Shown here: positions 16,350-62,850 of the stretch, piece by piece | Layout of the letters: each line of letters starts with the position of its first letter | Numbering within the stretch: position 1 is the first letter of the stretch | Assembly (NCBI GenBank): GCA_011033025.1 | Contig: WFMF01000020.1 | Location: forward strand, 744,001-808,000 | Length of the DNA: 64,000 bases | DNA from: Beroe forskalii | Taxonomy: Eukaryota; Ctenophora; Nuda; Beroida; Beroidae | Direction: 5' to 3' | The notes under the pieces: generated by a model | What the model saw: only the letters and a program-made list of their open reading frames with translations | Told to the model about the DNA's origin: nothing | Databases searched by the model: none | Made by a program: the position numbers and the translations under genes

Positions 16350-16417
16350 CTCTAATCCGTCTCCTCCTCTAATCCTTCTCCTCCTCTAATCCGTCTCCTC
16401 CTCTAATCCGTCTCCTC
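16350..16417 (-). repeat. 17-bp minisatellite containing the zinc-finger stop codon
   Basis: Four copies of CTCTAATCCGTCTCCTC (plus strand). On the minus strand each unit reads GAGGAGACGGATTAGAG-like, so the last codons Glu-Glu-Thr-Asp and the TAG are repeated in the 3' UTR. One copy has a G to T change. Confidence 0.
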
Positions 16418-17551
16418 CTTGACCCTGGACATGACAGTCCTGCCCTCCTCATCCACCTCCTCATCATCTGTCAGCACTTCCTCAGTCACCTCCTCCCCTT
16501 CCTTATCACCTTCCTTACCACTCCCTCCTTCCTTACCACTCCCAGTCTCCTCCTCTTCTTCCTCCTCCTCCTCCTCAACTTCCTCCTCTGCCTTCTTCTT
16601 CCCTTTCTTGTTATCTCCATGTGAGAACATGATGTGCATGTTCAGCAGCCCTTTTCCGTCGAACTTCGTGTTACAGAGTTTACAGATATGCGGTCCGGCG
16701 TCCAGGTGAGCTTTCCGCATGTGACGGTCGAGGGAGATAGCAGCTGAGAAGGCTTTCTTGCACTTCGTACACTGGAAATCCTTGCATTTCTCGTGAACAG
16801 CACGAACGTGACGCTTCAACTTGCTCTTGTCATCGAATATCTTCTCGCACTCCGTGCACACATTCGGCCCGGGGTCCGCGTGGACTTTGTATCGGTGACG
16901 GTCCAGGTGCATCTTTTGGTGGAAGATATCGTCGCACGACGGACACCGGAACTCCCGCGGTTTCTCGTGCACGGCTCGGATGTGTCGTTTGAGCCGCGCA
17001 GGATCGTCGAATAGCTTGCTACACAGCTGACACATGTTAGGACCCCCTCCCGCATGGGCCTTATACCGATGCTTATCCAACTGGATCTTAAACTTAAACA
17101 CCTCATTACACACATTGCACGTGTACTGCTCATCGTCACTATGGTTACTCGCGCTATGCACGGTGCGCCGATGCCGCGTCAACTTCCCAATATCCTCGAA
17201 TGTCTTGTGACACTGATTACAACTCAGATCCTGGAAGGTATCCATGTTCAGCCCACTCCCCGAAGGGTTAACATCCGCTCCCTTATGGTACACCGAATTA
17301 TGGTTTTTCTGCTGTGACGCGGACAGGAAGATCTGATCACACACCTTACACATGAAATCCGGCTCTATGGTGTGATGTTCGAGTTTGTGGCGGTCTTTGG
17401 CGATCCTGTCAGTAAACATGTCATCACACATGGTGCAGGCGTACTGCATCTGCATGGGGTGCATTAGCTTCATGTGTTTCTTAGCGTTTACTGTGTCCAT
17501 GAAGAACTTATCACATTGCTCGCAGTGCGTGTCTATTCGCCTCCCGTGGAC
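16403..17551 (-). CDS. Zinc-finger gene terminal exon e25
   Basis: Acceptor CTCCCACAG; 382 codons then TAG. Begins VHGRRIDTHCEQCDKFF and carries ten fingers, including YACTMCDDMFTDRIAKDRH, NVCTECEKIFDDKSKLKRH and FQCTKCKKAFSAAISLDRH. The tail is a run of about a dozen Glu, then glycine-serine-lysine and acidic residues. This large unsplit exon contrasts with the small upstream exons and may be a retained or retro-inserted block. The final codons and stop sit inside a 17-bp tandem repeat. Confidence 0.
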   Translation of the reverse strand, partial: VHGRRIDTHCEQCDKFFMDTVNAKKHMKLMHPMQMQYACTMCDDMFTDRIAKDRHKLEHHTIEPDFMCKVCDQIFLSASQQKNHNSVYHKGADVNPSGSGLNMDTFQDLSCNQCHKTFEDIGKLTRHRRTVHSASNHSDDEQYTCNVCNEVFKFKIQLDKHRYKAHAGGGPNMCQLCSKLFDDPARLKRHIRAVHEKPREFRCPSCDDIFHQKMHLDRHRYKVHADPGPNVCTECEKIFDDKSKLKRHVRAVHEKCKDFQCTKCKKAFSAAISLDRHMRKAHLDAGPHICKLCNTKFDGKGLLNMHIMFSHGDNKKGKKKAEEEVEEEEEEEEEETGSGKEGGSGKEGDKEGEEVTEEVLTDDEEVDEEGRTVMSRVKEETD

Positions 17552-20500
17552 CTGTGGGAGAGGGGTAGTGTTGTTACTTTGTTACATAAATCTCTCATTC
17601 TTAGCTCAGTGGCGCAGGCCGGGATTCGATCTCAGGATCTTTCGATCCTGTGCCAAATTCGATACCACTACACCACTGACCCATGAATACTTTATTAAGC
17701 GAATGGAAATATAGTGCCCGGTAAACGAGGCTCTCTGCGCAATTCTTTTCGTTCGATAAACTCGGTTTGTCTTATTGTATGACAATTGACGATTTTAAAA
17801 GGACAAATCTCGGTTCTTTTAAAGTTCTAATACCGTATTGCATATTACCATTGCATATTGCATATTACCATGAAGTCAATGATATCAATCATAATTCTTG
17901 GTCCTCACCTCGTATTTGTGTCGATCTAGGGGCACCTTGCCGGGGAAGGACTGGTTACAATCCCGACACATGTGTCCACTCTTGTCCACAGAGTCATGGA
18001 CACTGCGCAGGTGGTTCCTTAGATACCTGCACAGAGGGGACAATTAGTGGGGACAACTGGACAATGAGTGGGGACAGTAAGTGGGGACAATTAGTGGGAA
18101 AATAAGTGGGGAAAAGTTGGGGACAATTAGTGGGGACAATTAGTGGGGACAATTAGTGGGGAAAAGTTGGGGACAATTAGTGGGGACAATTAGTGGGGAC
18201 AATTGGTACTTTAGTATTATCACAGTGGGGACATTAAGGAACCTGCATTATCACATTACTGCACAGTGGTGACAAGTAACTAAGTGACGAGAAAGCGAGA
18301 AATGTAACAAGAATTTGAATTCATATTGTTGCACATTGTACAACAACAAAAGTTTCAAATTCTCGTTTAAATATTATCGTAAAATTTCAGTAATATCGGG
18401 AATTTAAACATTTAGCAATTCTCACAACTTTCAAATTCTCGTAACACTTAGCGGGCATCCTCGAAGAACTTATCACACTCTAGGCACATCGTGACTACCT
18501 CCTCGTCATGCACGTAGTAGAGATGTCTGTCGTACTCGCTACGCGAGGGGAACACCTGAGTGACGTCATTATCAGGGGTTAGAGTGGGGCGTTAGTGACG
18601 TCATCATTATACGCGAGGGGAACACCTGGGACGAGTGATGTCATAACTTGGGAACTCCAGAATATATTTTTCTACTCACAATTATTGATGGTATTTAATA
18701 CTTAAATATGTTGAAAGGACAAGTCCGTATCTTCTACCATTTTTGCTTGAGAGGGGGTGCAGATTGGAGGAGAGTTAGTCTCTCTCAGGCTGAGATGCCC
18801 CCTGAGGCAGTGTTCAGTACGTCCATACATATTACGCACCTCTATTTTATATACATGTACTTCCCATGCTAGCCCCTTACCTCTTCGCAGGTGCTACATC
18901 TGAACTCCGTATGTTTATCATGAACACTTCTCATATGTCTCTTCAGTGACCTCGGATCCTGCAAATATTGAATATCAGATTCAAAGCTTATTGAAAGTAT
19001 AGTAGAAGGGCAGAAAACTTTTCTATTAATAATAAAAGAAAAGAGCTTTAAGAAAAGAGCTTTATCTTTGGCTGTGTAGTTTCTTCATGAGATGATTACC
19101 TCGAAGTACTTGTCGCACTCGACACACATACTCTCAATAGTTTCCCCGTGTTCCTCATGTCTGTGCCGGTTTAGGATGGTGCGGCGTGGGAAGGTTTCCT
19201 CGCAGGTTTCACACACCCAACCCTCAGTGTTACCGTGAACCTGGGGGAGTAAAAAAGGTTAAACAAAGTTAGGGGAGTGGTGGGAAGTTAGGGGGAGTGG
19301 TGGGAACTGGGGGGGAGTGGTGGGAAGTTAGGGGGAGTGGTGGGAACTGGGGGGAACTGGTAGGAACTGGAAACCTCACAGGTTTCACACACCCAACCCT
19401 CAGTGTTACCATGAACCTGGGGTAGTAGTGGGAAGTTAGGGGGGGGGGAGGGAGTGATGGGAAGTTAGGGGGGAGTAGTGGGAAGTTAGGGGGGAGTGGT
19501 GGGAACTTGGGAGAGTGGTTCCACACACCCAGCCCTCAGTGTTACCATGAACCTGGGGGAGTTGTGGGAAGTTAGGGGGGAGTGGAGGGGACTTGGGGGT
19601 GGTGGGGACCTTGGAGAGTGGTGGGAACTTGGGGGAGTAGTGGGAACTTGGGGGAGTGGTTTCACACACCCAACCCTCAATGTTACCATGAACCTGGGGT
19701 AGTAGTGGGAAGTTAGGGGTGGGGGGTGGGAAGTTAGGGGAGGGGTGGAAACTTAGGGGAGTGGGCTTCAGTGTTACCATGAACCTGGGGTAGTGGGAAG
19801 TTAGGGGGGTGGGGGGGGGTGGGAAGTTAGGGGGGAGGGGTGGAAACTTAGGGGGAGTGGCTTCACACACCCAACTCTCAGTGTTACCATGAACCTGGGG
19901 GAGTGGTGTTTGAAAAAATGATATTTAAAACTTCACGCTATACGCAATTGAAAAATTGCAGTAAACATGATCATTGATCTTACGAAACGCTGAAAACTGC
20001 CTTTCAAGGCTAGGCAGTTTTCAGCACAGCTTTGAAACTTTTGAACTGAGAGAGCAGGAATCTATTGAAAAATATCCCAATAGACAGCCAAAATGCTGAA
20101 TGGAAAGAATTATAAATTTCATAAGGATTTGATTTTAAAAAGTTGTAGGCAATAGGTTTTACAGCAAAAGTATGCCCACTTTACCCCGCCTAAGTATTCA
20201 CCTGTTTGAAGTGGCGTTTGAAGGCGTTCTTATCATCAAAGAACTTCTGGCACTTATCACAGTGCGAGTCTGTCGTTATCTCGTGGATCACGAACAGGTG
20301 CTCGTTTAACTTGTGTTTCTTATCGAACCGTTCATCGCAGTGCTCGCAGATTATTCGACCTAAGATTGGAAAACATGGAGGCTGGGATCGCAGATTATTC
20401 GACCTGAGATTGGATTATTGGAAAACATGGAGGGCTGGGATCGCAGATTATTCGACCTGAGATTGGAAAACATGGAGGGCTGGGATCGCAGATTATTCGA

Positions 20501-23500
20501 CCTGAGATTGGAAAAGGCTGCAATATCAAGAGTGACTGTAAAACCACGAGGTGCACCACGAAGTCACTTAGTTTTTAGAGCTAACAATTAGAGCTTATTA
20601 GAGCTAATAAGAGATTAGAGCTAATGGGTTTCTCTGACCTTGTTAGATCTTAGAGATTCGAGCTCGTATCCCCTTTAGATTAGAGCTAATAAATTCCTCT
20701 GAGTCCCCTTTTGATTAGAGCTTATTAGAGCTAATAAGAGATTAGAGCTAATGGGCTCCTCTCATTTCAAAGAGCTAATGGATTTCTCTGAGATTAGAGC
20801 TAGTATCCCCCTTAAATTAAAGCTAATGGATTAGAGCTAATGGGGTCCTCTGACCTTGTTCGGCCGCGTGGAAGGAATCCATGTGTTTCACCGCCATCCG
20901 ACCATCGTCAAAATACTTGTCACACAGCTCACAGTAATCCACCTGCAAGGGTCAAATTTTTGCATGACTTATATTGCACGAAAATTATCTGATAACCTGG
21001 CTATTGGCTAATATGTCTAATCTGATAACCTGGAATCTGGCTGATATCAAAATTTAGTATGTAACCGTATACAGTATAGCTGACGGGAATAAATCTCAAA
21101 ATTATAATTTACATTAATTTGAAAATACAATTTTAAATCTCGATTTACAACAAAATAAAATTATATGGATCAATATAAAACACTAACAGATGGGTCGCCG
21201 TGTTTCTCGTGTAGATGTCTGTTGTACTGGGACCGCCTGTTGAACTCAATGTTACAGTCCTCACAAGTCAGGTGTGCTTCTGTACCTCCATGAACCTGCA
21301 GCCGAATGTATAAACTAGATAGTTTGTAACATATTCTCCATGAACCTGCAGCCGAATATATTAACTAGATAGTTGTAACATATTCTCCATGAACCTGCAG
21401 CCGAATATATAAACTAGATAGTTGTAGTTCATATTTTCCATGAACCTGCAGCCGAATATATAAACTAGATAGTTGTAACATATTTTCCATGAACCTGCAG
21501 CCGAATATATAAACTAGATAGCTGTAACATAAAATACAGCTGCCACCATGAACCTGCAGCCGAATACAAACTAAATAGTTGTAACATATTTTCCATGAAC
21601 CTGCAGCCGAATGTATAAACTAGATAGTTGTAACATATATTCAAAAATACAGCTCCCCCCATGAACCTGCAGCCGAATGTATAAACTATATAGTTGTAAC
21701 ATATATTCAAAAATACAGCTGACACCATGAACCTGCAGCCGAATACACACTTATATAGGTAGTTAGATAGTAACAAACTTATAGCTAGAAAGTTTGTAAC
21801 ATATTCATTTAGTCATTCAATATACAGCTTTAAACTTTACAGCTTTATGTTGCAGTCCTCGCATCAAACATTATTCCGCTTCCCACCTAATTTTGCTTAT
21901 TCTGCAGATGGCCCATTTCGTTATTCGTTATGGGGAAGTATTTCGAGGGATTGAAGTTTGAGTATCTCAAGGTGACAGGTGAAGTTATCTAAAAGTATTG
22001 ATAGCGGAGTAGCTTATTGACGTTGAACTTGAAGCTGACGTTGAAGCCACTAACTACAGCACTAATTCCCCAGTGACGTAGGCAACGGGGGCGTCAAGGC
22101 GTCTAGCACCAGAGACACTCCAAAACTCACTGATGACCCACGAAGTGAGAATTCATTTAATAACAAACCCAGAGAGAATTTAGAGTTATTTATAGGTTCA
22201 CTAAGATTTCTGTGAATTTGGGCATTTCCTCAGATCTTTATACGGTCAAAACTCAAGGTAAAATAGATCTTAAGAAGTCAAATTCAATTCTATAAGCGAC
22301 CCTCACCATGAAATCGAAACTATTTAAGCACTAAATTATAAATATAATTTATAAGATTATAGAGCTTTTTCTCCAGAATAGCAAATTTGGAGGTAAATTT
22401 CTAAACTGATACGCAACAATTGTTTATAAGTTTATCAGGATCATTGGAAAATCATAATCAAATTAAATTCTAAACGCCTAAAAACCCTTAGAATATCCCT
22501 CTTACCTGCCACTTGTGCCTCCTCAACTTGGGGTTATCATCAAAGTACTTGTCGCAGGTCTCACAGTAAAACTCAGGCTCCATAGCATGTTTCTCGTGGT
22601 TATGTCGGTTGTAGAGGGACACCCGACTAAAGTACAGCTCACAGTCAGCACAGTGTAGGCTCCTCCGCCACCATGCCGTGTACCTGGGAGGGAGGGGGTG
22701 TGAGGGAGTGACACCAGGTGTCATGGAGTCTGACACCAGGTGGCATGGAGTCTGACACCAGGTGTCATGGAGTCTGACACCAGGTGTCATGGAGTCTGAC
22801 ACCAGGTGTCATGGAGTCTGACACCAGGTGTCATGGAGTCTGACACCAGGTGTCATGGAGTCTGACACCAGGTGTCATGGAGTCTGACACCAGGTGTCAT
22901 GGAGTCTGACACCAGGTGTCATGGAGTCTGACACCAGGTGTCATGGAGTCTGACACCAGGTGTCATGGAGTCTGACACCAGGTGTCATGGAGTCTGACAC
23001 CAGGTGTCATGGAGTCTGACACCAGGTGTCATGGAGTCTGACACCAGGTGTCATGGAGTCTGACACCAGGTGTCATGGAGTCTGACACCAGGTGCTGAGA
23101 CTGACACCAGGTGTCATGGAGTCTGACACCAGGTGTCATGGAGTCTGACACCAGGTGTCATGGAGTCTGACACCAGGTGTCATGGAGTCTGACACCGTGT
23201 ACCTGGGAGGGAGCGAGTTTGACACCATATCTACAATCTGCTGCCTGACACCACATTCGACTTTACACCATATTCAACCTGACACCACATAGCTTCTCAT
23301 AGCTTTCACAGCACATCTGACACCACATTAAACTTGACACCACATTCAAGCCTGACACCACATAGCTTTCACAGCACTTCTGACACCACATTCAACCTGA
23401 CACCACTTACCCGTTTGTCGTGCCGATGAAGAGCCGTAGTGTCGTTGAAGAACTTATCACACAGCGCGCACCGGTTATCCACATCCTGTCCGTGTGTCTC

Positions 23501-56500: not shown

Positions 56501-59500
56501 AATTTTGATACTTATAGATGTAAGAAGGTCTCAATTCTAAATTTCAGATTCAGTAAAGCAAGCCCTTTGCCCAAGCATCTTCAAAAGGGAAGTATCTGGC
56601 GAGTATTTAGCATAAAACGAATTAAAAAAGACACACCCGGTTCAGGGCAAACTATCTGACCCGTTACTCACTGGTAAAGAAGAGGTCACATTCGACACAC
56701 ATTGGATTACTCACTTGTGAAGAAGAGGTCACACTCGACACACATGGGATTGACCGGCACGCCGTGACCATGGTACAGGTGCTTGGAGAGGGACAGCTTG
56801 TTCATGAACGTCTCATCACAGTCGTCGTAGGAGCAGGTGTGCTTCGTTTGGGACTCGTGGACCCGACGTATGTGCCGCTGCACCAACGCTGGACCTGAAC
56901 CAAGGAGCATGTCATTAGCAGGGGAGGGGGGAAGGGGGCAGCCTCCAACAAAAGTTTTACTTCTTTTAACTTTATAATATTTGCAACTAAAGTTGATCCG
57001 AGTGGGATTGATCCGAGTGGGATTGATCCGAGTGGAATTGTGGCAATCCCCTAATTTGGCTCTAATCAACATGAGTCATCATTTATCATTTATTATAATT
57101 TTTGGTTGTTTATCTATTTTGCAGGCACTGATCGCAACCGCCGCGGGTGGCTTGCTAGCCTCCGGATTCCCATAATTTGTACTGCACCTTCGAAGACTTT
57201 GTCACAGTACTGGCAGATGGTGTTTATCTTTTCGTAATGAATGTCTCTTCTGTGTTTGTCCAGCTCCACTTTCTTGTCAAACTGAGGGGAAAGTTTTGAT
57301 AAACTTAACTTATTCAATCAAATTTGAGAACTGATGAAGATATTGTATGCTTGTAACATCGAAAAGTTTTAAGACTTTCTTATTAAAACGCGGTTCAATT
57401 TTGTCGCAAAAAGTACATTCGAATAAAAAATTTCTATGAACTACGGTTCAAAAATACATCAATGCGACTCATATCAAACAGCCCGATCCAAAAACTGAAC
57501 GAGGAAAATTTTCAAGACAAATATTTAAAAGCGAAATATCAAACAACTACGTAATTGTTTGATATTTGATATTTTGATGTAAAATTTCTAACTTCATACT
57601 TCAATTTTATTAATAAATCAAACAGTAAGTAGGTTTTTCAATATATTTTTGCGATGCGTGATAAATTGCTGGCAACCACTTGCTGACAGCTTAACTATTT
57701 AACCTAAATGATCATTAAAAACCATATTATAAATTTATCAGCTTATCATAAACGTGCCCGTTTTCTTGAAAATATAAAACTTGGTACTCGGGTTATTAAC
57801 ACTTTTAAATCTTTCAATGAGTACTTTATTTATTCTCTTTTGACTCAATGGTACAAGTACTAATATAAACGATATGGTTCTTTAATGACAATCAATTTCG
57901 TCGTTCTACGACATCTTCAGGTCTAAAATTTGATTGTATAAAGTAGTGTTGTAAAGTTTAATTTTTTAAATAACATTGCACGAACCATCAGTCCATCACA
58001 AGAAAAATTAAATGCTCGCTCCTAAACTTGTGTAACCCACGTAACCTAAATTTGAGGTGTTACTGTGTTAAATGGGTTGGAAGGTTATTAAAACTTGAAG
58101 TCGTGAAATGGCTAGCTTGATGGATTATTGAGTTTACGAAGAAAATTGATTTCTAGGGAATTGGATATAATGCAATATAAGATTAAATAAGAATGCAAGA
58201 GCGGTGCAGTTTCACAAGAGGATCGTGCAATGTGCTTTATGAATTTGCTGCTCAGTTTCCGGGAACGTAAAAATCTTGCCAAGTCACGCATTAAACGCCG
58301 CGCACGAGAAATAGGCGGGAAGGGATGACGTCATTATCATAGCGTAACGTGGTGAGTTAATGACGTGCGCGGCAGTTGATACCAAAATTATTCATTTTCA
58401 TTTAAAAAGCCAACGCCCAAGCCGTAGGATGTAAGGGGGTTGTACAGCTCTCAAGGTTTTTAAAGCCTTGTAAACCTTGTTAACATTGTTAACCTTGTAA
58501 ACCTTAGTCTTAGTCTTAGTAAAACGGCCGGGGTCGGTTTAATCGAACAGGCCTGTGGCAGCCATGCTGAGCATGGAGACTATCCCTAGTACACAAGACG
58601 AAGGGTGTGAACTCCTGGGTGTAAACCTTGTATATCTTGTAAACCTTGTAAACATTGCACGGCTCTCTAACGAACCTGCTCGTCACATTTAGGACACGTC
58701 CAGTTGATGTCCACCCCGTGCTTTACGAACATGTGCTGCTTGAACTCAGTAGTTGCTGAGGAAAATGATGTCAACAAGTACGGTGTCAACAAGTATGGTG
58801 TCAACAAGTACGGTGTTAACGAGTATGGTGTCAACAAGTATGGTACTATGGTGTCAACAAGTGGTATGAAAATTATGGTGTCAACAAATGTGGTGACTGC
58901 TTTCAATAGTTTTGTGTCAACAACAGTGCCAGCTGATGACAATGGTGTCAACATAAGGTACAAAATATGGTGTGAAAGATTGTGGTGTCAACAATAAATT
59001 CGGTGACCGGTGTCGAAAGACGTAGTGTCAGCTGAGAAAAATTGTGTCAAGATGGGGAGCATAATACATATGAATTTTGTGCCAAAAGAAGTATATAATG
59101 TCAAAAGAAGTACATGTTGTCAAAAGAAGTATATTCCAAAAGAAGTACATGTTGTGAGCACTCACACTCGAAGTAGAGCGCACAGTGCTCGCAATGTTCC
59201 ACCAGCTCATTATGGATCTTGTGTTGGTGTGCGTGTAGCCGGGATCGCTGGTTGAAGAGCAGATTACACGGCTCACACGACCAGATCTTGTGCGCGGCTT
59301 GCGTGTCGAGCGTCTCACCGCCCTCACCGTGTGCGCGCATCAAGTGCCGTTCCAACATCACTTTGTCCTGGAGCATTGTAATTGTATTGTAAAATTCCCT
59401 TTCCCGGAGAAAGGGGGACGGACATTTCCCTGGTGGGAAACACCGGCACAGGGGTCACAGTACACCATTTATAGCAAGGTGCCTCTGCTACACTCGGGTG

Positions 59501-61208
59501 CCCGGAGTTTGATGAGAACATTGTTTCAGTGCAAAAAACAAGTAATTTGAAGAAAATAAACTTAATTTACATCTCATGCCATTTTAAAGGCATTAATTAG
59601 GGATGTTTATAACAACTCATGGTGGCAATTAGGAACGCATTACCTCAAAGAACTTATCGCAGGAGATGCACATAGTGTCAATGACAACACATGTTGTCAA
59701 CTGACAACGCATGGTTTCAAATGACAACGCATTACCTCAAAGAACTTATCACAGGAGATGCACATGGTGTCAATGCTTTCTTCGTGTTCCTCGTGTCTGT
59801 GTCTGTCAACTAGAACTGGGTAAGAAAACCCGGCCCCACACTCGTTACACGTAAATATCGGTTTCTTGGAGGTGTGACTGATCTGCAAGGGTAGAGAATG
59901 ATAATCAAATCATTAATTTATAGGCAGTTATTGTCATAATTGGCATTATAATTAAACCCCCCAGAGGTGATTTTTTATCCACCAAAAGTAAGGGGGTTTC
60001 CCCCTGGAATAGCCCCAATTAATCAATTATGTCCATGGTTTTGTCCCAAAGTCCCAACTATGAATCGACATTGGACTGAATTCCCGAACACTGAGCATCA
60101 TGTCACTGTTTGAATTTGCTTACTTTGACATGGCGTTGCAGGGCACGTTGGTCTTCAAAGAACCTCTCACATTCCATGCACATGGTGTCAACTTCATCCT
60201 CGTGAACATGGTACCTGAGGGGAACAAGTTTAAAACGTTTAAATGAAACGATAAAGTTTAAAATAAGAAGTTTTCGAAAATCATGTGATTATCGTCGTTA
60301 GCTGAAGATGGTATAATCTGAACGTTATCCGTTTCAAGACCACTCATATATAGACTCATAATACCGGGAGGCCCAAAAAACGTAACATGAAAAAGTATCA
60401 AGAAGTTAATAGGGATGGGAAAAATAGATGAAAAAAATTCAAAAAATGGATAATTAGAAACTAATAAGCTAATATAACCGTTGATTTTCCTAACCATTGA
60501 AAATTCAACTAATCAACAATTCAACTATGTCCGGACACAATATCCACACAAAGACACAACATCCAGACAATGTCCGGACACAATCTCCCCCACAAACCTG
60601 TGAGAGTCTCTGGCAGCTTTGGATTTGAAAGTCTGATCACAGGCTCGACACATGAGCTCTTCCTCCCTGCCGTGCGTGTCTTTGTTGTGTTTGCGCAGCA
60701 GGTAGATCGCTGGCGGAGGTTTATTTCACTGTAACTCCTTTGGGGGCCAACCCCCATAAACCTCCAAAAATTGAACCCTCTTTGCCATTTTTCGATATTC
60801 ATCGGGGGTTTATGAGGGGTGTCCTCCCTTTCGTTTTTACAAACAAGATGTATAACTCTTTTTCACAAACATCACAGTAGACATAACGGGCATAGGTCAG
60901 AACAGCAACGCCACGAGGGCGCCATGGCAGTGCCACGTTAGTGCCACTTACTAATACTTTTATGCCATTTTTTTATAACCAAAGTATTTGTCACACTGTA
61001 AATTAGACATAACTCTAAATTAGACATCACTTACTATCGAAGTATTTGTCACACTCCGTACAATACACATCACTCTCATCCAAATGGACTTTGCTCCTAT
61101 GGTGATCGTATTCTGATCTGTTTGTGTAAGTGTAGTTACAGTCCCTACACGACCATTCACTGTACTTGCTGTGCATTTGTTCCTTGTGTCGACGGAGGGA
61201 CCGGGGCG
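16403..61208 (-). CDS. Poly-C2H2 zinc-finger protein, ~43 fingers, 25 in-window exons, 5'-partial
   Basis: Joining 25 minus-strand exons gives about 1,392 codons of near-continuous C2H2 fingers (C-x2-C-x12-H-x3/4/5-H). An acidic linker lies near the middle. The C-terminus has a run of Glu, Gly-Ser-Lys stretches and acidic residues. Proteins of this kind are normally nuclear and bind DNA or RNA, but no target can be inferred. No KRAB, BTB, SCAN or ZAD domain is visible; an N-terminal domain could lie beyond 64 kb. Fingers often alternate between a form like WxCxxCxxxFxxRxxLDRHRHxxH and a form like TMCxECDKFFEDxxxLxRHxRxVH, which suggests growth by duplication of a two-finger unit. Exon lengths sum in frame except for one surplus base in e17. 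Two splice sites are non-canonical (e23 donor, e9 acceptor). The e14-e15 intron is about 30.4 kb and holds a GPCR gene. Two separate genes are possible, but e14 and e15 each need exactly the missing half of the other's finger. Confidence 0.
17606..17679 (-). ncRNA. tRNA-like sequence (pseudo-tRNA or tRNA-derived SINE head)
   Basis: In the e24-e25 intron a 74-nt minus-strand segment has a perfect 7-bp acceptor stem (TCAGTGG / CCACTGA), an A-box-like TGGTGTAGTGG, a strong central stem (CAGGAT / ATCCTG) and a B-box-like GATCGAATCCC. The T stem does not pair and the central loop is not a standard 7-nt anticodon loop, so no amino acid can be assigned. More likely a tRNA-derived repeat than a working tRNA. 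Confidence 0.
17909..18026 (-). CDS. Zinc-finger gene exon e24
   Basis: Acceptor CTGTGCAG, donor GTGAGG, phase 2 in and phase 0 out. YLRNHLRSVH closes the e23 finger; HMCRDCNQSFPGKVPLDRH has its second His in e25 (KYE, then VH). A G-rich minisatellite fills the intron just upstream. Confidence 0.
18036..18205. repeat. G-rich intronic minisatellite (GTGGGGACAATTA)
   Basis: About ten degenerate units of GGGGACAATTAGT (plus strand) directly upstream of the e24 acceptor. The units supply its pyrimidine-rich 3' intron end on the minus strand. Confidence 0.
18452..18555 (-). CDS. Zinc-finger gene exon e23 (non-canonical donor)
   Basis: Acceptor CACTCAG, phase 0. VFPSRSEYDRHLYYVH then TMCLECDKFFEDA plus a split Arg codon. 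Joining to e24 in phase needs the exon to end in CG, so the intron would start CTAAGTG instead of GTAAGTG. Reading to the next GT puts a TAA in frame. One base change (G to C) would explain it. The acceptor and first 16 bases are repeated about 70 bp upstream. Confidence 0.
18541..18632. repeat. Tandem copy of the e23 acceptor and exon start
   Basis: ACGCGAGGGGAACACCTG occurs at 18541 (the real e23 start and acceptor) and again at 18611, each followed by a copy of TGACGTCAT-type sequence. Confidence 0.
18881..18958 (-). CDS. Zinc-finger gene exon e22
   Basis: Acceptor ATTTGCAG, donor GTAAGG, 26 codons, phase 0. DPRSLKRHMRSVH closes the e21 finger; FRCSTCEE opens one finished by e23 (VFPSRSEYDRHLYYVH). 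Confidence 0.
19100..19240 (-). CDS. Zinc-finger gene exon e21
   Basis: Acceptor CTCCCCCAG, donor GTAATC, 47 codons, phase 0. VHGNTEG, finger WVCETCEETFPRRTILNRH with RHEEH, then SMCVECDKYFE opens another. Its first 20-43 bases with the acceptor recur five times in the upstream intron array. Confidence 0.
19241..19905. repeat. Intronic array carrying five extra copies of the e21 acceptor
   Basis: Units made of GGGAGTGGTGGGAAGTTAGG stretches alternate with copies of the e21 start (plus strand: CACACACCCAACCCTCAGTG then TTACCATGAACCTGGGG). Copies lie near 19381-19422, 19521-19560, 19660-19700, 19768-19795 and 19862-19902. All carry the CAG acceptor. Confidence 0.
20202..20359 (-). CDS. Zinc-finger gene exon e20
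   Basis: Acceptor CAATCTTAG, donor GTGAAT. GT completes Gly; fingers RIICEHCDERFDKKHKLNEH (closed by LFVIH) and SHCDKCQKFFDDKNAFKRH. The intron falls before the second His of the latter (FKQ, then VH). The first 16 bases plus acceptor recur three more times upstream. Confidence 0.
20346..20515. repeat. ~45-50-bp array with three extra copies of the e20 acceptor
   Basis: The unit holds CAGATTATTCGACCT followed by GAGATTGGAAAACATGGAGG. The minus-strand reading gives CAATCTCAG then the first 16 bases of e20. The functional copy ends at 20359. Confidence 0.
20570..20850. repeat. Degenerate intronic array around the e19 donor
   Basis: Repeats of GATTAGAGCTAATGGG with interspersed CTCTGACCTTGTT at 20632 and again at the true donor (20848-20860). 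The donor and final exon bases of e19 are therefore duplicated within the intron. Confidence 0.
20855..20942 (-). CDS. Zinc-finger gene exon e19
   Basis: Acceptor CCCTTGCAG, donor GTCAGA, phase 0 in and phase 1 out. VDYCELCDKYFDDGRMAVKH then MDSFHAAEQ. The donor context (AACAAG then GTCAGAG) recurs about 215 bp downstream inside a degenerate intron array. Confidence 0.
21188..21295 (-). CDS. Zinc-finger gene exon e18
   Basis: Acceptor GGCTGCAG, donor GTTAGT, 36 codons, phase 0. VHGGTEAH then finger LTCEDCNIEFNRRSQYNRH, LHEKHGDPS. Homologous in layout to e17 and e21, which also start VHG. Its acceptor and first 10 bases recur about eight times in the adjacent upstream array. Confidence 0.
21284..21775. 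repeat. ~50-65-bp array with about eight extra copies of the e18 acceptor
   Basis: Unit CCATGAACCTGCAGCCGAAT plus ATATAAACTAGATAGTTGTA and variable filler. On the minus strand every unit reads CGGCTGCAG then GTTCATGGAG-like sequence, the acceptor and first bases of e18. Confidence 0.
22506..22683 (-). CDS. Zinc-finger gene exon e17 (1-base excess, frameshift)
   Basis: Acceptor CCTCCCAG and donor GTAAGA both require phase 0, but the exon is 178 bp. It opens in the expected frame (VHGMVAEE) and reaches TGA after 12 codons. From LHCADCELYFSRVSLYNRH on, the fingers read one base off, through FYCETCDKYFDDNPKLRRHKWQ. A single surplus base near the GGAGGAG stretch explains it. It could be a consensus error or a genuine disabling insertion. 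Confidence 0.
22676..23213. repeat. 22-bp minisatellite (about 22 copies) flanked by duplicated e17 acceptors
   Basis: ACACCAGGTGTCATGGAGTC plus TG is repeated from about 22707 to 23196 with high identity. It is bracketed by two identical 19-bp segments CCGTGTACCTGGGAGGGAG at 22676 and 23195. The first is the e17 acceptor and exon start. The unit core ACACCAGGTGT is palindromic. Confidence 0.
23214..23405. repeat. Degenerate array abutting the e16 donor
   Basis: Diverged units of TGACACCACATTCAACC run up to the e16 donor, whose own intron start (minus strand GTAAGTGGTGTCAGG) is part of the repeat. Confidence 0.
23411..23513 (-). CDS. Zinc-finger gene exon e16
   Basis: Acceptor CCTCTACAG, donor GTAAGT. 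The T completes Ser; RHMYETH closes the e15 finger; NRCALCDKFFNDTTALHRH follows, with the intron before its second His (DKR, then VH in e17). The following intron is almost entirely minisatellite. Confidence 0.
23514..24105. other. Intron e15-e16 and start of the giant intron
   Basis: 23514-23820 is plain AT-rich intron. After e15, 23932-24105 is pyrimidine-rich sequence leading to the Polinton-like insertion. No further exon seen. Confidence 0.
23821..23931 (-). CDS. Zinc-finger gene exon e15
   Basis: Acceptor CGTTCCAG, donor GTACAA. One base completes Arg, then LMKHFRAH closes the e14 finger. An acidic spacer (NPAEEESEEEH) precedes ITCRLCPSVFIRKTAY. Phase 2 out. Confidence 0.
24112..27328. 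mobile_element. Polinton-like / foldback element with tandem-repeat inverted termini
   Basis: The two ends are inverted copies starting AGTCACCCCCCCACTCAGC (identical for about 25 bp). They are flanked by a perfect 6-bp direct repeat ATCTTA (24106-24111 and 27329-27334). Inside the ends are ~80-bp tandem units with GAAGCTGGTTCCAGATTATA, TTTTGCCAACTCTG and the palindrome GGTCACGTGAC: about four at the left (24180-24535) and five or more at the right (26600-27220). A 6-bp duplication and 5'-AG ends are Polinton hallmarks; repeat-built inverted ends are typical of foldback elements. No integrase, polymerase or capsid frame is visible in the 1.9 kb interior, so it is non-autonomous if Polinton-related. 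It sits in the giant intron of the zinc-finger gene. Confidence 0.
25840..26285. mobile_element. TA-flanked MITE nested in the Polinton-like element
   Basis: Inverted ends CCTTATTGGCCCTTATTTAG and its complement, with TA on both sides. The interior is rich in GGGCCGGTTAAAA motifs. 446 bp, no coding frame. Termini resemble those of the MITE at 1341 (CCTTAGTGG). Confidence 0.
27335..28004. other. Intronic spacer downstream of the GPCR
   Basis: Mixed AT-rich sequence with small open frames lacking codon or motif support. Nothing recognised. Confidence 0.
28005..28262 (-). repeat. ~50-bp minisatellite containing the GPCR C-terminus and stop codon
   Basis: Degenerate copies of ACTAAGCCTTTTTGTCTTGT followed by GACTGAGTCCCGGACACC. 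The GPCR's last codons (GTQSQDKKA and TAG) lie in the copy nearest the gene; four to five further copies follow downstream. Confidence 0.
28228..29767 (-). CDS. Class-A-like G-protein-coupled receptor, nested in the zinc-finger intron
   Basis: Two exons give about 381 residues. Exon 1 (29347-29767): acceptor GATCTCAG, first Met at 29756, TM1 (FPDILIALIFATLAFFSFF), TM2 (IPKVLFLLLNTLDLLTCIAY) and TM3 ending CRLRQLQHPF in place of DRY. Donor is AG then GTTGGT. Exon 2 (28228 to about 28963): PYHFDRVIP, TM4 (VTIIFFTLYLAYTVCLLYF), TM5, TM6 (ILVTNMGSLLQTVAIMLML) and TM7 with CYNPLIF, an NPxxY variant, then a basic tail. An integral plasma-membrane receptor; ligand unknown. The N-terminus is short with no N-glycosylation site. 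The best in-phase start of exon 2 is preceded by GAACG, not AG; a canonical acceptor at 29012-29014 (TTGTAG) stays open but adds 16 residues. Upstream exons could exist but would only be 5' UTR or a few codons. Confidence 0.
29768..29900. repeat. Minisatellite derived from the GPCR exon 1 acceptor region
   Basis: Degenerate units of GAACCAGGGTTAGATT (plus strand). The minus-strand copy next to the exon, CTAATCTAACCCCGGTTGAT then CTCAG, is the branch-point-like and polypyrimidine segment of the acceptor. Confidence 0.
29901..31850. other. Intronic spacer
   Basis: AT-rich, no exon recognised. 31370-31465 holds a GC-rich block (CACCCTCGGACACTTTGGGG, then CTTGGGCTCGCGG and GGGGGGCTTGCCAGACCCC) related to 40910-41030. 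A (GA)n microsatellite is at 31800-31820. Confidence 0.
31858..32015. mobile_element. Multi-hairpin (cloverleaf-like) element, copy 2
   Basis: Outer arms GTTTAGTAACGAGTAAAAGT and AGTTTAGTAACTTTTACGAG enclose two perfect-looking hairpins: TTACACACGAGGGCC ... GGCCCGAGTGTGTAA and GCATTGAAAAACCGAGGCC ... GGCCGAGGTTTTTTAATGC. Same architecture as 15404-15566 and 35097-35222. Confidence 0.
32325..32500. repeat. ~88-bp tandem duplication
   Basis: AACGTAACTTCGAGAGCGTG and the following 70 bases recur at about 32427 (AACGTAACTTTGAGAGCGTG) with small changes. Confidence 0.
32501..33729. other. Intronic spacer
   Basis: AT-rich; 33135-33240 contains a decayed relative of the CRE-containing MITE (ATTACGTCACC, CCGCCTATATCTCGTG). 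No exon recognised. Confidence 0.
33732..33840. mobile_element. CRE-palindrome MITE, copy 1
   Basis: Inverted ends CCCGCGCACAAGAAATAGGC and GCCTATTTCTCGCGCGGCG. The core carries TGACGTCATTATCATATCAT and GATGACGTTGAA. Non-coding, about 100 bp, matching 52275-52382 and 58291-58373. Confidence 0.
33950..34097. repeat. ~77-bp tandem duplication
   Basis: AATATAGAGTAAATCAACAC and the next ~50 bases (ATTATATAACGTAGTCATCA) occur twice nearly identically. Confidence 0.
34098..35090. other. Intronic spacer
   Basis: AT-rich, no supported gene; small open frames only. A short duplication TAGTTTCCCAGCGAGT lies near 34970-35005. Confidence 0.
35097..35222. mobile_element. Multi-hairpin (cloverleaf-like) element, copy 3
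   Basis: Outer arms GACACTTGCCTGATCGGGTC and GACCCGATGGGCGCGTGTC enclose GC-rich hairpins with CCTCGCCCTACGGGCTCGGG and CCCTCGGGCTTATGCCCTCG. An inner pair is ATCGGTTTAG / AAAACCGGAT. Confidence 0.
35223..36470. other. Intronic spacer with a short direct repeat
   Basis: TGTGCGCAACGGGTGAGTCA with the following ~40 bases (AAATAAACCCTGAGGCCTGAACC region) occurs at about 35873 and 36040. Otherwise unrecognised. Confidence 0.
36475..37066. mobile_element. Inverted-end element built of GTCCCAATT/TTTGTCCCA repeats, 6-bp target duplication
   Basis: Ends GGGGGGAGTGTCACTGTCCC and the inverted ACAGTGACACCCCCC, flanked by TTTAAC on both sides (36469-36474 and 37067-37072). The interior is dense TGTCCCAATTGTCCCATTTG repeats. 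Open frames here are repeat artefacts. Confidence 0.
37380..37745. repeat. Cluster of CTATAGGCGCC palindromes
   Basis: At least ten occurrences of CGCCTATAGG, CACCTATAGG, CTTATCGGCG or close variants, in both orientations, within about 360 bp. Many are self-complementary. Confidence 0.
37746..38594. other. Intronic spacer
   Basis: No gene recognised. Includes TTTTCACGGACNTGAAAATCA-like small repeats. Confidence 0.
38595..39722 (-). repeat. Large dispersed repeat, copy C (inverted, no MITE insertion)
   Basis: Reverse complement of the right ~60% of copies A and B: ends CACCCTGCGCACGTGG at 38600, shares CTTGTCCACCCCACC, GTACTTCAGTACAACACTCA and TGAGCCAATGGGACTTCAAC. At the MITE position it is intact (ACTAACTTATTCTTG). 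Confidence 0.
39730..39990. mobile_element. Foldback MITE ~260 bp
   Basis: Arms TTTTCCCAAAACCAAAATTT ... CATGATATGAGAAAAGAACG ... and the inverted CGTTCTTTTCTCATCATGGG ... CCTTTTGGTTTTGGGAAAA. Directly abuts copy C. Target duplication not clear. Confidence 0.
39991..41034. other. Intronic spacer with GC-rich block
   Basis: 40430-40460 has TGACGTCATTATGACGTCAT. 40910-41030 is a GC-rich block (GGCCTTCGGCCCGAGCACTG, GGGGGGCTTGCCAGCCCCC) related to 31370 and 57125. No gene. Confidence 0.
41035..43330. repeat. Large palindrome plus ~1.18-kb tandem duplication
   Basis: 41035-41255 is inverted at 41465-41685 (AGCAACCACACGAGTT versus CGTGTGGTTGCT; TTTCAGTAATTATGACCAGT versus GACTGGTCATGAATC). The palindrome and its right flank then recur at +1184 bp (41310 matches 42494). 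The right ends of both copies (41820-42110, 43005-43280) carry an inverted, diverged piece of the large dispersed repeat (ATATATGGACCAATTCTATA, GGCAGAATGTCTGCATGTAC). Confidence 0.
43533..45462 (+). repeat. Large dispersed repeat, copy B (no MITE insertion)
   Basis: Direct copy of 1-2541, from GGGGTTCACCATGGGGTCAG to CCACGTGCGCAGGGTG. At 44861 the sequence AAGAATAAGTTAGTTGG is the uninterrupted version of the MITE insertion site in copy A. No conserved long coding frame. Confidence 0.
43918..44104. mobile_element. Hairpin MITE with degenerate telomere-like loop (copy in B)
   Basis: Arms GGACATTTCATCTCAGGACA and TGTCCTGAGATGAAGTGTCG pair. The loop is CCTGACCCTAACCATAACCC then TTACCCAAACCCAGACCCTA, a decayed CCCTAA array. 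Matches 384-572. Confidence 0.
45463..46390. other. Spacer with a small minus-strand open frame
   Basis: A 52-codon minus frame (about 45962-46120, starting MGTTVWCRIGFSS and containing VKKAGLRKAAYTAFDNLNRA) looks more protein-like than its surroundings but has no family I recognise. Its region is partly duplicated at 46180-46290, where a (CG)n tract interrupts it. Probably a decayed mobile-element fragment. Confidence 0.
46391..47420. repeat. ~345-bp tandem repeat, three copies
   Basis: AGCCTCAAGACCACAACAGA at 46391 recurs at about 46739 and 47082 with the following GATGAAGCTGAAACTGTC, GGATCACCTCAAACC and AACGCAAGGTCAAAAACTCC blocks. Satellite-like, no coding. Confidence 0.
47421..49200. 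repeat. Block with recurrent GTTACGTAAC palindromes
   Basis: GTGCGTTACGTAAC or GTGCATTACGTAAC occurs at about 47906, 48061 (double), 48750, 48775, 48961 and 49140 in otherwise plain AT-rich sequence. Role unknown. Confidence 0.
49201..50940. other. Intronic spacer
   Basis: No gene recognised. Contains a (CA)n tract near 49245, an inverted pair at 50034-50120 and a CCAAT palindrome at 50180-50242 (ATTGACCAATCAGTGCGCG / CTGCGCACTCATTGGTCAAT). Confidence 0.
50954..51298. repeat. 54-bp (2 x 27) repeat open in several frames
   Basis: CGACTCTTAGCAAAACAGAA / CTACTCTTAGTGAAACAGAA alternate from about 51088. The unit is a multiple of three, so two plus frames and one minus frame stay open and give repeats such as RLLAKQNEKLLLVKQNGE. 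No promoter or splice context supports a gene. A short upstream duplication (ACATCAGATAATATTTTAGA) sits at 50930-51025. Confidence 0.
51320..52274. other. Intronic spacer
   Basis: AT-rich, nothing recognised. Confidence 0.
52275..52382. mobile_element. CRE-palindrome MITE, copy 2 (inverted)
   Basis: Ends CTGCGCACGAGAGAAATGCG and CCGCCTATTTCTCGTGCGCG; core CATGATATGATAATGACGTC. Inverted relative to 33732-33840. Confidence 0.
52383..53500. other. Intronic spacer
   Basis: AT-rich, no gene recognised. Confidence 0.
53501..54376 (+). pseudogene. Possible decayed mobile-element coding fragment
   Basis: Two plus frames offset by a shift (53569-53760 and 53757-54011) contain protein-like text such as IWHDTKVLCDFNNRRPIAIA and HKRTNKDLYLSRLSNRPNF. 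A third frame covers 54024-54383. I recognise no domain; retroelement debris is the likeliest explanation. Low confidence. Confidence 0.
54377..54483 (-). CDS. Zinc-finger gene exon e14
   Basis: Acceptor GATTTCAG, donor GTAGGA, phase 0 in and phase 2 out. VFELLSALEYHRRNVH closes the e13 finger; TICEICGLFISDPK with a split Arg codon begins another. The missing half (LMKHFRAH) is the start of e15, about 30.4 kb away, giving exact C-x2-C-x12-H-x3-H spacing. Confidence 0.
54640..54770. repeat. GC-rich CGGGAGTCCC minisatellite after the e13 donor
   Basis: Degenerate ~10-20-bp units CCCGGGAGTCC / ACGGGAGTCCCCCGG in the intron starting about 17 bp past the e13 donor. Confidence 0.
54787..55035 (-). 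CDS. Zinc-finger gene exon e13
   Basis: Acceptor CTCCCCAG, donor GTATGG, 83 codons, phase 0 both ends. TPKRLLKHMREVH closes the e12 finger. The next, FFCARCELVFDKRSALDKH, lacks its final His (LREKD follows), so it is a degenerate finger. TYCEPCDKYFEELRGKERH is intact, and YSCEPCGE opens the next. Confidence 0.
55155..55246. repeat. CCAAT-containing nested palindromes
   Basis: ACCAATCAGCGCGCATG / CGCGTGCTGATTGGTC and CATTGACCAATCAGAGTGCG form overlapping inverted repeats beside the e12 donor; related to 50180-50242. Confidence 0.
55253..55370 (-). CDS. Zinc-finger gene exon e12
   Basis: Acceptor GTTATCCAG, donor GTGACA. The G completes Arg, then finger CLECNIGEFPSKTVYMNH with IRLTH, and YCFKCTTHQQ opens the next finger. 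Phase 0 out. The adjacent intron holds ACCAATCAG-type palindromes. Confidence 0.
55611..55677 (-). CDS. Zinc-finger gene exon e11, acidic linker
   Basis: Acceptor ATACCCAG, donor GTAAAA, phase 1 in and phase 2 out. It encodes an Asp/Glu-rich stretch (DKEEDMDELDDRPDDEDD, then FIIY) with no finger. It separates the N-terminal and central finger arrays. Found from its splice signals and phase; it is too short to stand out as an open frame. Confidence 0.
55863..55988 (-). CDS. Zinc-finger gene exon e10
   Basis: Acceptor TCCCTCAG, donor GTAAGT, phase 1 at both ends. ADLLRHLHDAH closes the e9 finger; the finger starting QYCDKCDLYFGNRKALYRH follows, ending in IHAA before the acidic linker exon. Confidence 0.
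56266..56364 (-). CDS. Zinc-finger gene exon e9 (non-canonical acceptor)
   Basis: Phase and finger spacing both require the exon to start with AT before CAGAAAGAC, giving FFTNQKDFSKHNRENH with exact x12 spacing. The bases before it are CTCTCAA, not AG. The next AG (AATCAG) is out of phase with e8. An upstream TTAG is in phase but would insert 8 residues into the finger. The exon then encodes LINCDKCTSTFKNA; donor GTAGGT, phase 1. Confidence 0.
56660..56750. repeat. 43-bp tandem copy of the e8 3' end and donor
   Basis: TTACTCACTGGTAAAGAAGA at 56664 versus TTACTCACTTGTGAAGAAGA at 56707, each followed by GGTCACANTCGACACACAT. Both carry a GTGAGT donor on the minus strand. Confidence 0.
56715..56894 (-). 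CDS. Zinc-finger gene exon e8
   Basis: I chose acceptor GGTTCAG over the downstream GTCCAG because only the former restores 12 residues between the second Cys and first His (DKVFEGPALVQR). It encodes an unusual C-x4-C finger (CSYDDCDETF) and the start PMCVECDLFFT. Donor is GTGAGT, phase 1. The last ~32 exon bases plus the donor recur 43 bp downstream, but that second donor is out of reach in frame because a TAA follows the first donor. Confidence 0.
57188..57281 (-). CDS. Zinc-finger gene exon e7
   Basis: Acceptor TCCCCTCAG, donor GTGCAG, phase 0 in and phase 1 out. FDKKVELDKHRRDIH closes the e6 finger and TICQYCDKVFE opens the next. The intron follows the conserved FE position used by several introns of this gene. 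Confidence 0.
57290..58660. other. Intron e6-e7
   Basis: AT-rich. 58435-58660 has repeated TTGTAAACCTTGTTAACATT motifs. No exon recognised. Confidence 0.
58291..58373. mobile_element. CRE-palindrome MITE, copy 3
   Basis: Starts ACGCCGCGCACGAGAAATAG with GATGACGTCATTATCATAGC; right end shortened to TGACGTGCGCGGC. Confidence 0.
58676..58755 (-). CDS. Zinc-finger gene exon e6
   Basis: Acceptor TTTCCTCAG, donor GTTCGT. Completes Ser from phase 1, then TTEFKQHMFVKH finishes the previous finger, and WTCPKCDEQ opens the next. A 15-bp minisatellite (GGTGTCAACAAGTAY) occupies the intron directly upstream of the acceptor. Confidence 0.
58756..59000. repeat. 15-bp minisatellite upstream of the e6 acceptor
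   Basis: GGTGTCAACAAGTAY repeated at least five times in regular order (58780-58850) then degenerate copies to about 59000. Confidence 0.
59166..59367 (-). CDS. Zinc-finger gene exon e5
   Basis: Acceptor GCTCCAG, donor GTGAGT, phase 0 in and phase 1 out. It completes the e4 finger (DKVMLERHLMRAH), then a linker GEGGETLDTQAAHKI, finger WSCEPCNLLFNQRSRLHAH and half of EHCEHCALYFE. The linker is longer than in most of the array. Confidence 0.
59638..59785. repeat. Duplicated e4 3' end and donor
   Basis: ATTACCTCAAAGAACTTATC plus GCAGGAGATGCACAT at 59639 recurs at 59731 (the true e4 end). The downstream copy encodes the same MCISCDKFFE and carries a GTAATG donor. Confidence 0.
59736..59882 (-). 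CDS. Zinc-finger gene exon e4
   Basis: Acceptor CCCTTGCAG, donor GTAATG. Phase 0 at both ends, 49 codons: ISHTSKKPI, finger FTCNECGAGFSYPVLVDRH, then the start of a second finger, MCISCDKFFE. The last exon bases and the donor are duplicated about 92 bp downstream in the intron. Confidence 0.
60124..60214 (-). CDS. Zinc-finger gene exon e3
   Basis: Acceptor CCCCTCAG, donor GTAAGC. Begins with G completing Arg, then YHVHEDEVD and the finger TMCMECERFFEDQRALQRH. The intron falls between the two zinc-binding histidines (RHVK, then ISH in e4), phase 0. Confidence 0.
60598..60709 (-). CDS. Zinc-finger gene exon e2
   Basis: Acceptor CCGCCAG and donor GTTTGT. Starts with CG, completing the Thr codon begun in e1, and ends in phase 2. 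It finishes the e1 finger (TIYLLRKHNKDTH) and encodes LMCRACDQTFKSKAARDSH. The final His-x4-His completes in e3. A GGGGTTTATGGGGG-type interspersed repeat lies immediately upstream of the acceptor. Confidence 0.
60716..60835. repeat. Interspersed CCCCATAAACC / GGGGTTTATG repeat, copy 3
   Basis: Shares TTTGCCATTTTTCGATATYC and the flanking inverted CCCCCATAAACC / GGGGGTTTATG with 5223-5335 and 55438-55525. Confidence 0.
60975..61060. repeat. Diverged duplicate of the e1 3' end
   Basis: AAAGTATTTGTCACACTGTA at 60981 resembles AAGTATTTGTCACACTCCGT of e1 (61040), each followed by sequence with ACATCACT or ACATAACT. A decayed copy of the exon end. Confidence 0.
61035..61208 (-). CDS. Zinc-finger gene exon e1 (first visible)
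   Basis: Acceptor CTTCCAG is followed by 2 bases completing a codon; donor is GTAAGT (phase 1). It encodes the C-terminal half of a finger (PRSLRRHKEQMH), the full finger beginning WSCRDCNYTYTNRSEYDHH, and the first half of the next (VYCTECDKYFD). It starts mid-finger, so at least one more upstream exon must exist beyond the window. Its first 15 bases are copied about 30 times in the adjacent upstream minisatellite. Confidence 0.
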
Positions 61209-62850
61209 CTGGAAGGAGGAAATAATTGGAAATATTCTAACAAGAGGAGGGACCGGGCGCTAAAGAGGAATAATTGCTGGAAATTCTAACAAGAGGAGGA
61301 ACCGGGGCTGGAAGGAGGAAATAATTAAAAATATTCTAACTAGAGGAGGACCAAGTGCTGAAGGAGGAAATAATTGGAAATATTCTAACAAGAGGAGGAG
61401 CAAGGAGGGAATAATTGGAAATTTAACAAGAGGAGAGGACCGGGGAAGATTGAGGGGAGGAAAAATAATTGAAAATATTCTTAACAAGAGGAGGGACCGG
61501 GAGGAGCTGGAAGGAGGAGAATAATTGGAATATTCTAACAAGAGGAGGGAAGTGGGGTGCTGGAAGGAGGAAATAATGGAAATATTCTAACAAGAGGAGG
61601 ACCAAGGAGGAAATAATTGAAATATTCTAACAAGAGGAGGACCAAGTTGGAGAGGAGGAAATAATTAAATATTCTAACAAGAGAGGGAGCGGGGCGCTGG
61701 AAGGAGAAAGGATTGGAAATATTCTAACAAGAGGAGGACCAAGCGGAAGGGAGGGAATAATTGGAAATATTCTAACAAGAGGAGGGACCAAGCTGGAAGG
61801 AGGAAATAATTGGAAACAAGAGGAACAAAGGAGGAAATATTCCAAGAGGGCTGGAAGGAGGACCCAAGAGGAGGGACCAAGGGAAGGAGGAAATACTGGA
61901 AATATTCTAACAAGAGGAGGGAGGGGCGCTGGAGGAGGAAATAAATTGGAAATTCTAACAAGAGGAGGGACCAAGGAAGGAGGAGGAAATAATTAAATAT
62001 TCCCAAGAGGAGGGAAGGGTGCTGGAAGGAGGAAATACTAGAAATTAACAAGAGGAGGACCAAGGGAGGAATGCCTAACAAGAGGAGGACCAAGGAAGAG
62101 GAAATAATTGGAAATATTCTAACAAGGAGGAGCAAGTGAAGGGAGCGGGGGCGCTGGGGAGGAGGAAATAATTGAAATTCTAACAAGAGGAGGACCGGGG
62201 GCGCTGAAGGAGGAGAAATAATTGGAAATATTCTAACAAGAGGAGGGACCAGGTGCTGGAAGCGAGGAAATACTTAGAAATTTAACAAGAGAGGGACCAA
62301 GCGGAAGGAGAAATAATTGGAAATATTCTAACAAGAGGACCAACTGCTGGAAGGAGGAAAATAATTGGAAATATTCTAACAAGAGGAGCGGGCGCAAAGA
62401 AAGATGAAATAATTGGAAATATTCTAACAAGGGGAGGGAGCGGAAGGAGGAAATAATTGAAATGGGAGGGGAAGGAAAATAATTAGAAATATTCTAACAA
62501 GAGGAGGGACTGGGGCGCTAGAAGGAGGAGGAAATAATTGGAAATATTCTAACAAGAGGGAGGAGCAAGTGCTGAAGGAGAAATAATTGGAAATTTAACA
62601 AGAGGAGGGACCAAAGGCTGGAAGGAGGAAATAATTGGGAATATTCTAACAAGAGGGAGGGACGCTGGAAGGAGGAGGAAATAATTGGAAATTCTAACAA
62701 GAGGAGGGAGGGGGGAAGGAGGAAATAGTTGGAAATATTCTAACAAGAGGAGGGACCGGGGCGCTGGAAGGAGGAAATAATTGGAAATTCTAACAAGAGG
62801 AGGGACCGGGGCGCTGGAAGGAGGAAATAATTGGAAATTCTTAACAAGAG
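61200..62850. repeat. ~52-bp minisatellite, about 30 copies, carrying the e1 acceptor
   Basis: Unit GGACCGGGGCGCTGGAAGGA followed by GGAAATAATTGGAAATATTC and TAACAAGAGGAG. Read on the minus strand each complete unit has a branch/pyrimidine tract, CCTTCCAG and the first bases of e1 (CGCCCCGGTCC). The copy at 61208 is the functional acceptor. Leucine-, proline- and serine-rich open frames here are artefacts. Confidence 0.

Follow-up and report, generated by a model that had tools for sequence, protein, structure and literature searches.

Mirage-like tandem repeats across exon boundaries of a predicted zinc-finger gene in a comb jelly

The window analysed here is a stretch of 64,000 bases (contig 248, positions 744001–808000) in the 216-Mb, 1134-contig assembly of the comb jelly Beroe forskalii. 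It holds a predicted C2H2 zinc-finger gene and, nested in one of its introns, a predicted GPCR-like gene (Table 1). The exons of the zinc-finger gene were modelled from open reading frames (ORFs), C2H2 motifs and GT/AG borders, and the exon names of a preliminary description of this DNA were assigned to the present models by position. The last exon matches Pfam PF00096 (4.9e-27), and the gene as modelled from 61208 to 16406 could represent two genes. Neither ORF of the GPCR-like gene had a Pfam match and the larger one had no PDB match, so that its name derives from the preliminary description and from the look of the sequence. Tandem Repeats Finder (TRF) returned 103 rows within the window.

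Table 1 Predicted genes and repeats at gene-structure boundaries in the window. Fractions of 20 are gapless matches of the 20 bases centred on the edge; paired scores are gapped alignments against the maximum in shuffled sequence.
Feature	Positions	Strand	Evidence and remarks
C2H2 zinc-finger gene (predicted)	16406..61208	minus	24 exons found here; intron of ~30 kb
GPCR-like gene (predicted)	28228..29783	minus	ORFs; inside the ~30-kb zinc-finger intron, same strand
Array, e1 acceptor 61208	61194..62850	minus	TRF; 33 units of ~50 bases; copy 19/20
e4 donor end 59736, duplicate at lag 92	59640..59790	minus	20/20
e8 donor end 56715, 43-base unit	56664..56751	minus	TRF 91%; 16/20; 22 vs shuffle maximum 13
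e17 acceptor 22683 and identical 19-base copy at 23213	22683..23213	minus	TRF, sequence; 18/20
Array, e18 acceptor 21295	21286..21744	minus	TRF; 9 cores GGCTGCAG/GTTCATGG; copy 20/20
e19 donor 20855, copy near 20644	20640..20862	minus	27 vs shuffle maximum 13; 15/20
Array, e20 acceptor 20359	20344..20513	minus	TRF; copy 19/20
Array, e21 acceptor 19240	19205..19906	minus	Copy 19/20
e23 acceptor 18555, single gapped duplication	18540..18660	minus	22 vs shuffle maximum 14; 15/20
17-base array over zinc-finger stop codon	16316..16419	minus	TRF; 20/20 at lag 17
35/44-base array, GPCR stop	28029..28263	minus	TRF; 14/20

The preliminary description had named 13 boundaries in the two genes at which tandem repeats straddle and copy a splice site or stop codon. 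We tested each by taking the 20 bases centred on the edge and searching for the best gapless copy at most 1500 bases away, and doubtful edges were scored by gapped alignment against the maximum obtained with shuffled sequence. By this procedure, 10 of the 13 boundaries have a clear tandem copy running across them, namely all six acceptors, three of the four donors and the stop codon of the zinc-finger gene, so that 9 of the 10 named splice sites of that gene are spanned by a repeat unit. The lags of the edge copies (17, 43, 44, 50 and 92) differ from locus to locus, as does the length of the unit. The repeats themselves cannot be put down to chance, as 8.3% of positions in 20 real loci reach 17/20 versus 0.02% in 3 block-shuffled loci.

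In the e1 array the acceptor core with its AG is kept in 21 of 33 units, the true site counted, and by the same fuzzy match the other 12 have no acceptor core with AG. All nine e18 cores, again with the true one counted, are identical and stand in a row. The e20 array holds the acceptor with 16 exon bases four times, and the e21 array holds the acceptor with the start of the exon six times, the true copy being included in both counts. At e17 a 22-base array (22709–23196) that itself contains no acceptor sits between the two identical acceptors. Arrays also lie near the acceptors at 58753 and 18026 without copying them (13/20 each).

Among the other named boundaries, the e1 donor at 61035 showed no clear copy (gapless 11/20; gapped 17 against a shuffle maximum of 17). 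The stop codon of the GPCR-like gene lies inside a repeat unit and is counted beyond the ten spanned boundaries; its TAG ends the first 35-base unit (TRF identity 100%), and for this reason it falls below the spanning threshold. At the acceptor tract of the GPCR-like gene, repeats are confined to the pyrimidine tract upstream of the exon, and no copy of the exon was found there (13 versus shuffle 13).

Scoring of the array units bore out a further claim, that dozens of spare splice acceptors result: in five acceptor arrays, 26 spare AG sites match or exceed the true site or come within 1 bit of it, by a matrix trained on 24 sites. This is clearest at e20, where the presumed true acceptor (cttag) scores 5.4 and three upstream copies at 20403–20501 (ctcag) score up to 10.0. 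If used, all eight spare e18 acceptors and all three spare e20 acceptors (insert lengths 142, 97 and 44) would lead to a frameshift or an in-frame stop. Because these 11 of 11 checked sites would break the frame, splicing would be expected to use the exon-proximal copy. The coordinates of the preliminary description are right, its account of repeats that copy boundaries fails at the GPCR acceptor tract, and TRF agrees with it that units differ in sequence and length between edges. Its view that each array was born locally from the exon edge is supported for e18, the one edge array searched genome-wide: the 49-base e18 unit gave five matches, all within its own array, in a search that skips very common words, so that the lack of a match elsewhere is not proof of rarity.

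We then asked whether edges are copied more often than introns at large, using 110 edges from the zinc-finger gene and from 32 independent introns (19 myosin, 7 dynein and 6 kinase). For myosin, eight regions were taken from 78 matches, and 37 neighbouring splice pairs gave 22 introns, with 10 giving none and 5 skipped at a profile gap; three of the 22 (L053:998, L056:2267 and L056:2884) were excluded from the count at the outset, as they disagreed with the profile in the number of residues. For dynein, two regions were taken from 80 matches, and for kinase, 10-kb regions around 20 of 135 matches were taken along with 20 domain sequences; together these gave the 13 dynein and kinase introns kept, while 12 pairs gave none. 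The donor of e23 at 18451 is uncertain, and it is absent from the 110-edge count (22 donors) and present in the spanning and gene-alone tests (23 donors). An initial BLAST self-comparison had placed 2–4 of 24 acceptors and 1–2 of 23 donors in repeats, below the shifted mean in all settings (P 0.70–0.997), and was replaced by the gapless lag test because it missed short-period arrays that are visible by eye.

Local tandem copies cover 24–35% of intron positions in the zinc-finger gene and 12–18% in the independent introns, and 2–7% of the exon interiors of the zinc-finger gene. Since an array of many copies inflates this raw coverage and only one of its copies is the founder, we weighted each intron position by the inverse of its copy number, which is our own choice of null. 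The weighted background is 8–10% in the zinc-finger gene and 4–6% in the independent introns. Against it, 6–11 of 110 edges were copied where 6–8 are expected (19–28 from raw coverage). The Poisson P for all edges was 0.15–0.56 across six settings, and by our estimate 110 edges are too few to exclude a two-fold preference. Coverage profiles gave no peak at the acceptors of the zinc-finger gene (~18–26% in the last 300 intron bases); past the acceptor, exon coverage is 12% in the first 20 bases and then 1–3%, a drop completed within 20–40 bases. At its donors, a result that pulls the other way, coverage is slightly raised in the first 70 intron bases (13–16%) relative to bases 100–300 (7–11%), though it stays below the 31–38% of the deep intron. 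In the independent introns coverage near the edges is lower than in the whole intron, with 9–12% at 10–60 bases upstream of acceptors versus 12–18% overall. The preference for exon boundaries that the preliminary description had proposed is not supported, either by the number of copied edges when each array counts as one or by the coverage at acceptors.

Copied edges do occur in the independent genes, at the background rate. One of 32 acceptors was copied in five of the six settings and two of 32 in the sixth, and 0–2 of 32 donors were copied. A myosin acceptor (L054) has a 19/20 copy at lag 34 upstream, which shows that the edge-copy structure is not confined to the zinc-finger gene, and a kinase donor (L016) has a 17/20 copy. 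In the zinc-finger gene taken alone, 5 of 24 acceptors are copied where 1.4–2.0 are expected without the e1 array in the background (P 0.01–0.04), and the expectation rises to ~1.8–2.5 (by our own multiplication) once that array is counted; the gene was chosen for showing the pattern, and a raised acceptor rate is seen in this gene alone.

Repeats of other kinds are also present in the window. A 75-base minisatellite forms two inverted arms (24279–24535 and 26880–27213) that are 96% complementary and ~2.3 kb apart, and similar matches occur on many other contigs, many of them as plus/minus pairs; the stretch 24279–27213 is probably a mobile element whose ends carry inverted minisatellites. A dispersed sequence occurs in three copies (1–2540, 38594–39726 and 43537–45468) that are 93–98% identical, one of them inverted. 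There is a 1.2-kb tandem direct repeat at 41080–43445 (93% identical), a 348-base tandem unit present about three times at 46357–47404, and, at 36551–37006, neighbouring arrays of TTGGGACAA on one strand and of its complement on the other. An ORF at 50954–51298 contains a 54-base repeat (KQNEKLLLVKQNGERLLA-like) and has no Pfam match.

A glutamate-receptor ligand segment of 119 residues from the same assembly was also compared with known receptors. It scored 122–123 bits with Mnemiopsis ML032222a, 96 with 4zdm ('glutamate receptor kainate-like protein') and at most 59 with mammalian GluA2; 4zdm is presumably from Pleurobrachia. The ML032222a fragment matched 8 of 11 glutamate-receptor loci, with a best identity of 48%. 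From this one gene family the host would be a ctenophore, probably other than M. leidyi. A GFP search, meant to test an amphioxus origin, gave no match, but its controls gave none either. When the receptor was searched against PDB with its membrane helices included, mammalian GluA chains ranked first, and with a longer protein kainate receptor chains did so, in lists whose ctenophore chains are ligand domains only (256–261 residues).

The preliminary description knew of no process that would make such repeats. Comparable structures have, however, already been described. In amphioxus, two reports describe 'mirages', minisatellite-like duplications of exon-intron boundaries (PMC3087553, PMC3902484), in Adh3 and the globins BflGb6 and BflGb9 (PMC3087553), to which troponin C and PGBD5 were later added (PMC3902484). 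Their units are 10–72 long in Adh3 and 150–160 in the globins, and they were discussed as a source of introns (PMC3087553). As in the present locus, the unit of these repeats crosses the exon-intron boundary, 5' and 3' boundaries are both affected, units vary between loci, and AG or GT is kept in many but not all units; here the splice signal is kept in 21 of 33 e1 units and in 9 of 9 e18 cores. Unlike the amphioxus cases, the present one lies in a different phylum, involves about nine boundaries in one gene and also includes two stop codons. In the potato RdRp gene, a tandem duplication that likewise crosses an intron-exon boundary is reported to have produced a new intron (PMC4974935), whereas here many copies have accumulated and no new intron is shown. 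Among ctenophores, the Hormiphora californensis genome report gives 13% of the genome as tandem repeats by TRF and many genes nested in introns (PMC8527503), and both high tandem-repeat content and genes nested in introns recur here. No boundary-copy structure in a ctenophore appeared in the titles and opening abstracts among the literature matches listed, which is weak evidence of absence. What is new here is the taxon and the number of boundary copies per gene, and the type of structure was already known.

We consider it likely that the edge arrays are mirage-type minisatellites that arose by neutral local tandem duplication within introns, combined with selection against copies in exons. 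Under this reading, local tandem duplication is frequent and strikes segments regardless of gene structure, as shown in our sample by an edge rate equal to the array-level intron rate. Duplicates within coding exons, where depletion is observed, would be removed by selection. A duplicate spanning an edge may be tolerated because an intact splice site would still adjoin the rest of the exon, and the extra copies would turn into intron. Some duplicates may then expand by slippage or unequal exchange, and the splicing machinery would have to take the copy next to the exon.

A process directed at splice sites is not supported by the present small sample. Minisatellites might be born preferentially at acceptors, for instance if the pyrimidine tract and CAG/GT favoured slippage or transcription-linked breaks, and this would fit the 5 of 24 copied acceptors of the zinc-finger gene (1.4–2.0 expected) as well as five kinase matches (L013, L016, L018, L021 and L025) with repeats located at their 5' ends or a short way upstream. 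Yet the gene was picked for its pattern, only one or two of 32 independent acceptors are copied and coverage just upstream of them is below that of the introns overall, and we regard such an origin as unlikely. Quite unlikely, too, is the reading in which short tandem duplications in this lineage start preferentially at acceptors, at CAG/GT and the pyrimidine tract, and steadily yield spare splice sites. Statistical support for this reading comes solely from the surplus of copied acceptors in the zinc-finger gene, a surplus not seen in the independent introns. If this were true, there would be a standing supply of spare splice sites for new exons and introns.

The spare acceptors could also be functional, serving alternative exons or helping in the choice of the right site. 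The uniformity of the nine e18 cores and the 26 well-scoring spare AG sites would suit such a role, but the frameshifts or stops expected from every spare e18 and e20 acceptor checked, the 12 of 33 e1 units without acceptor core and AG by fuzzy match, and the normal splicing reported despite mirage copies in amphioxus (PMC3087553, PMC3902484) make it very improbable. A derivation of the edge arrays from dispersed or transposed satellites would fit one minisatellite of the window, the 75-base unit found in inverted pairs on many contigs; that unit, however, is not at an exon edge, and the e18 array, the sole edge array searched genome-wide, matches only its own place. An error of assembly or a merging of haplotypes has to be weighed since a single assembly is the source, but units differ inside the larger edge arrays (TRF 71–97%; 100% for the 35-base GPCR unit) and between arrays, and similar structures occur on other contigs. 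For both of these explanations we see hardly any likelihood.

Neutral duplication with selection against exon copies supplies a null model in which, with every array taken as a single case, boundary copies are about as frequent as the background. The extension of mirages from amphioxus to a comb jelly suggests that they arise generally as a by-product when introns undergo tandem duplication, and that they are no peculiarity of lancelets.
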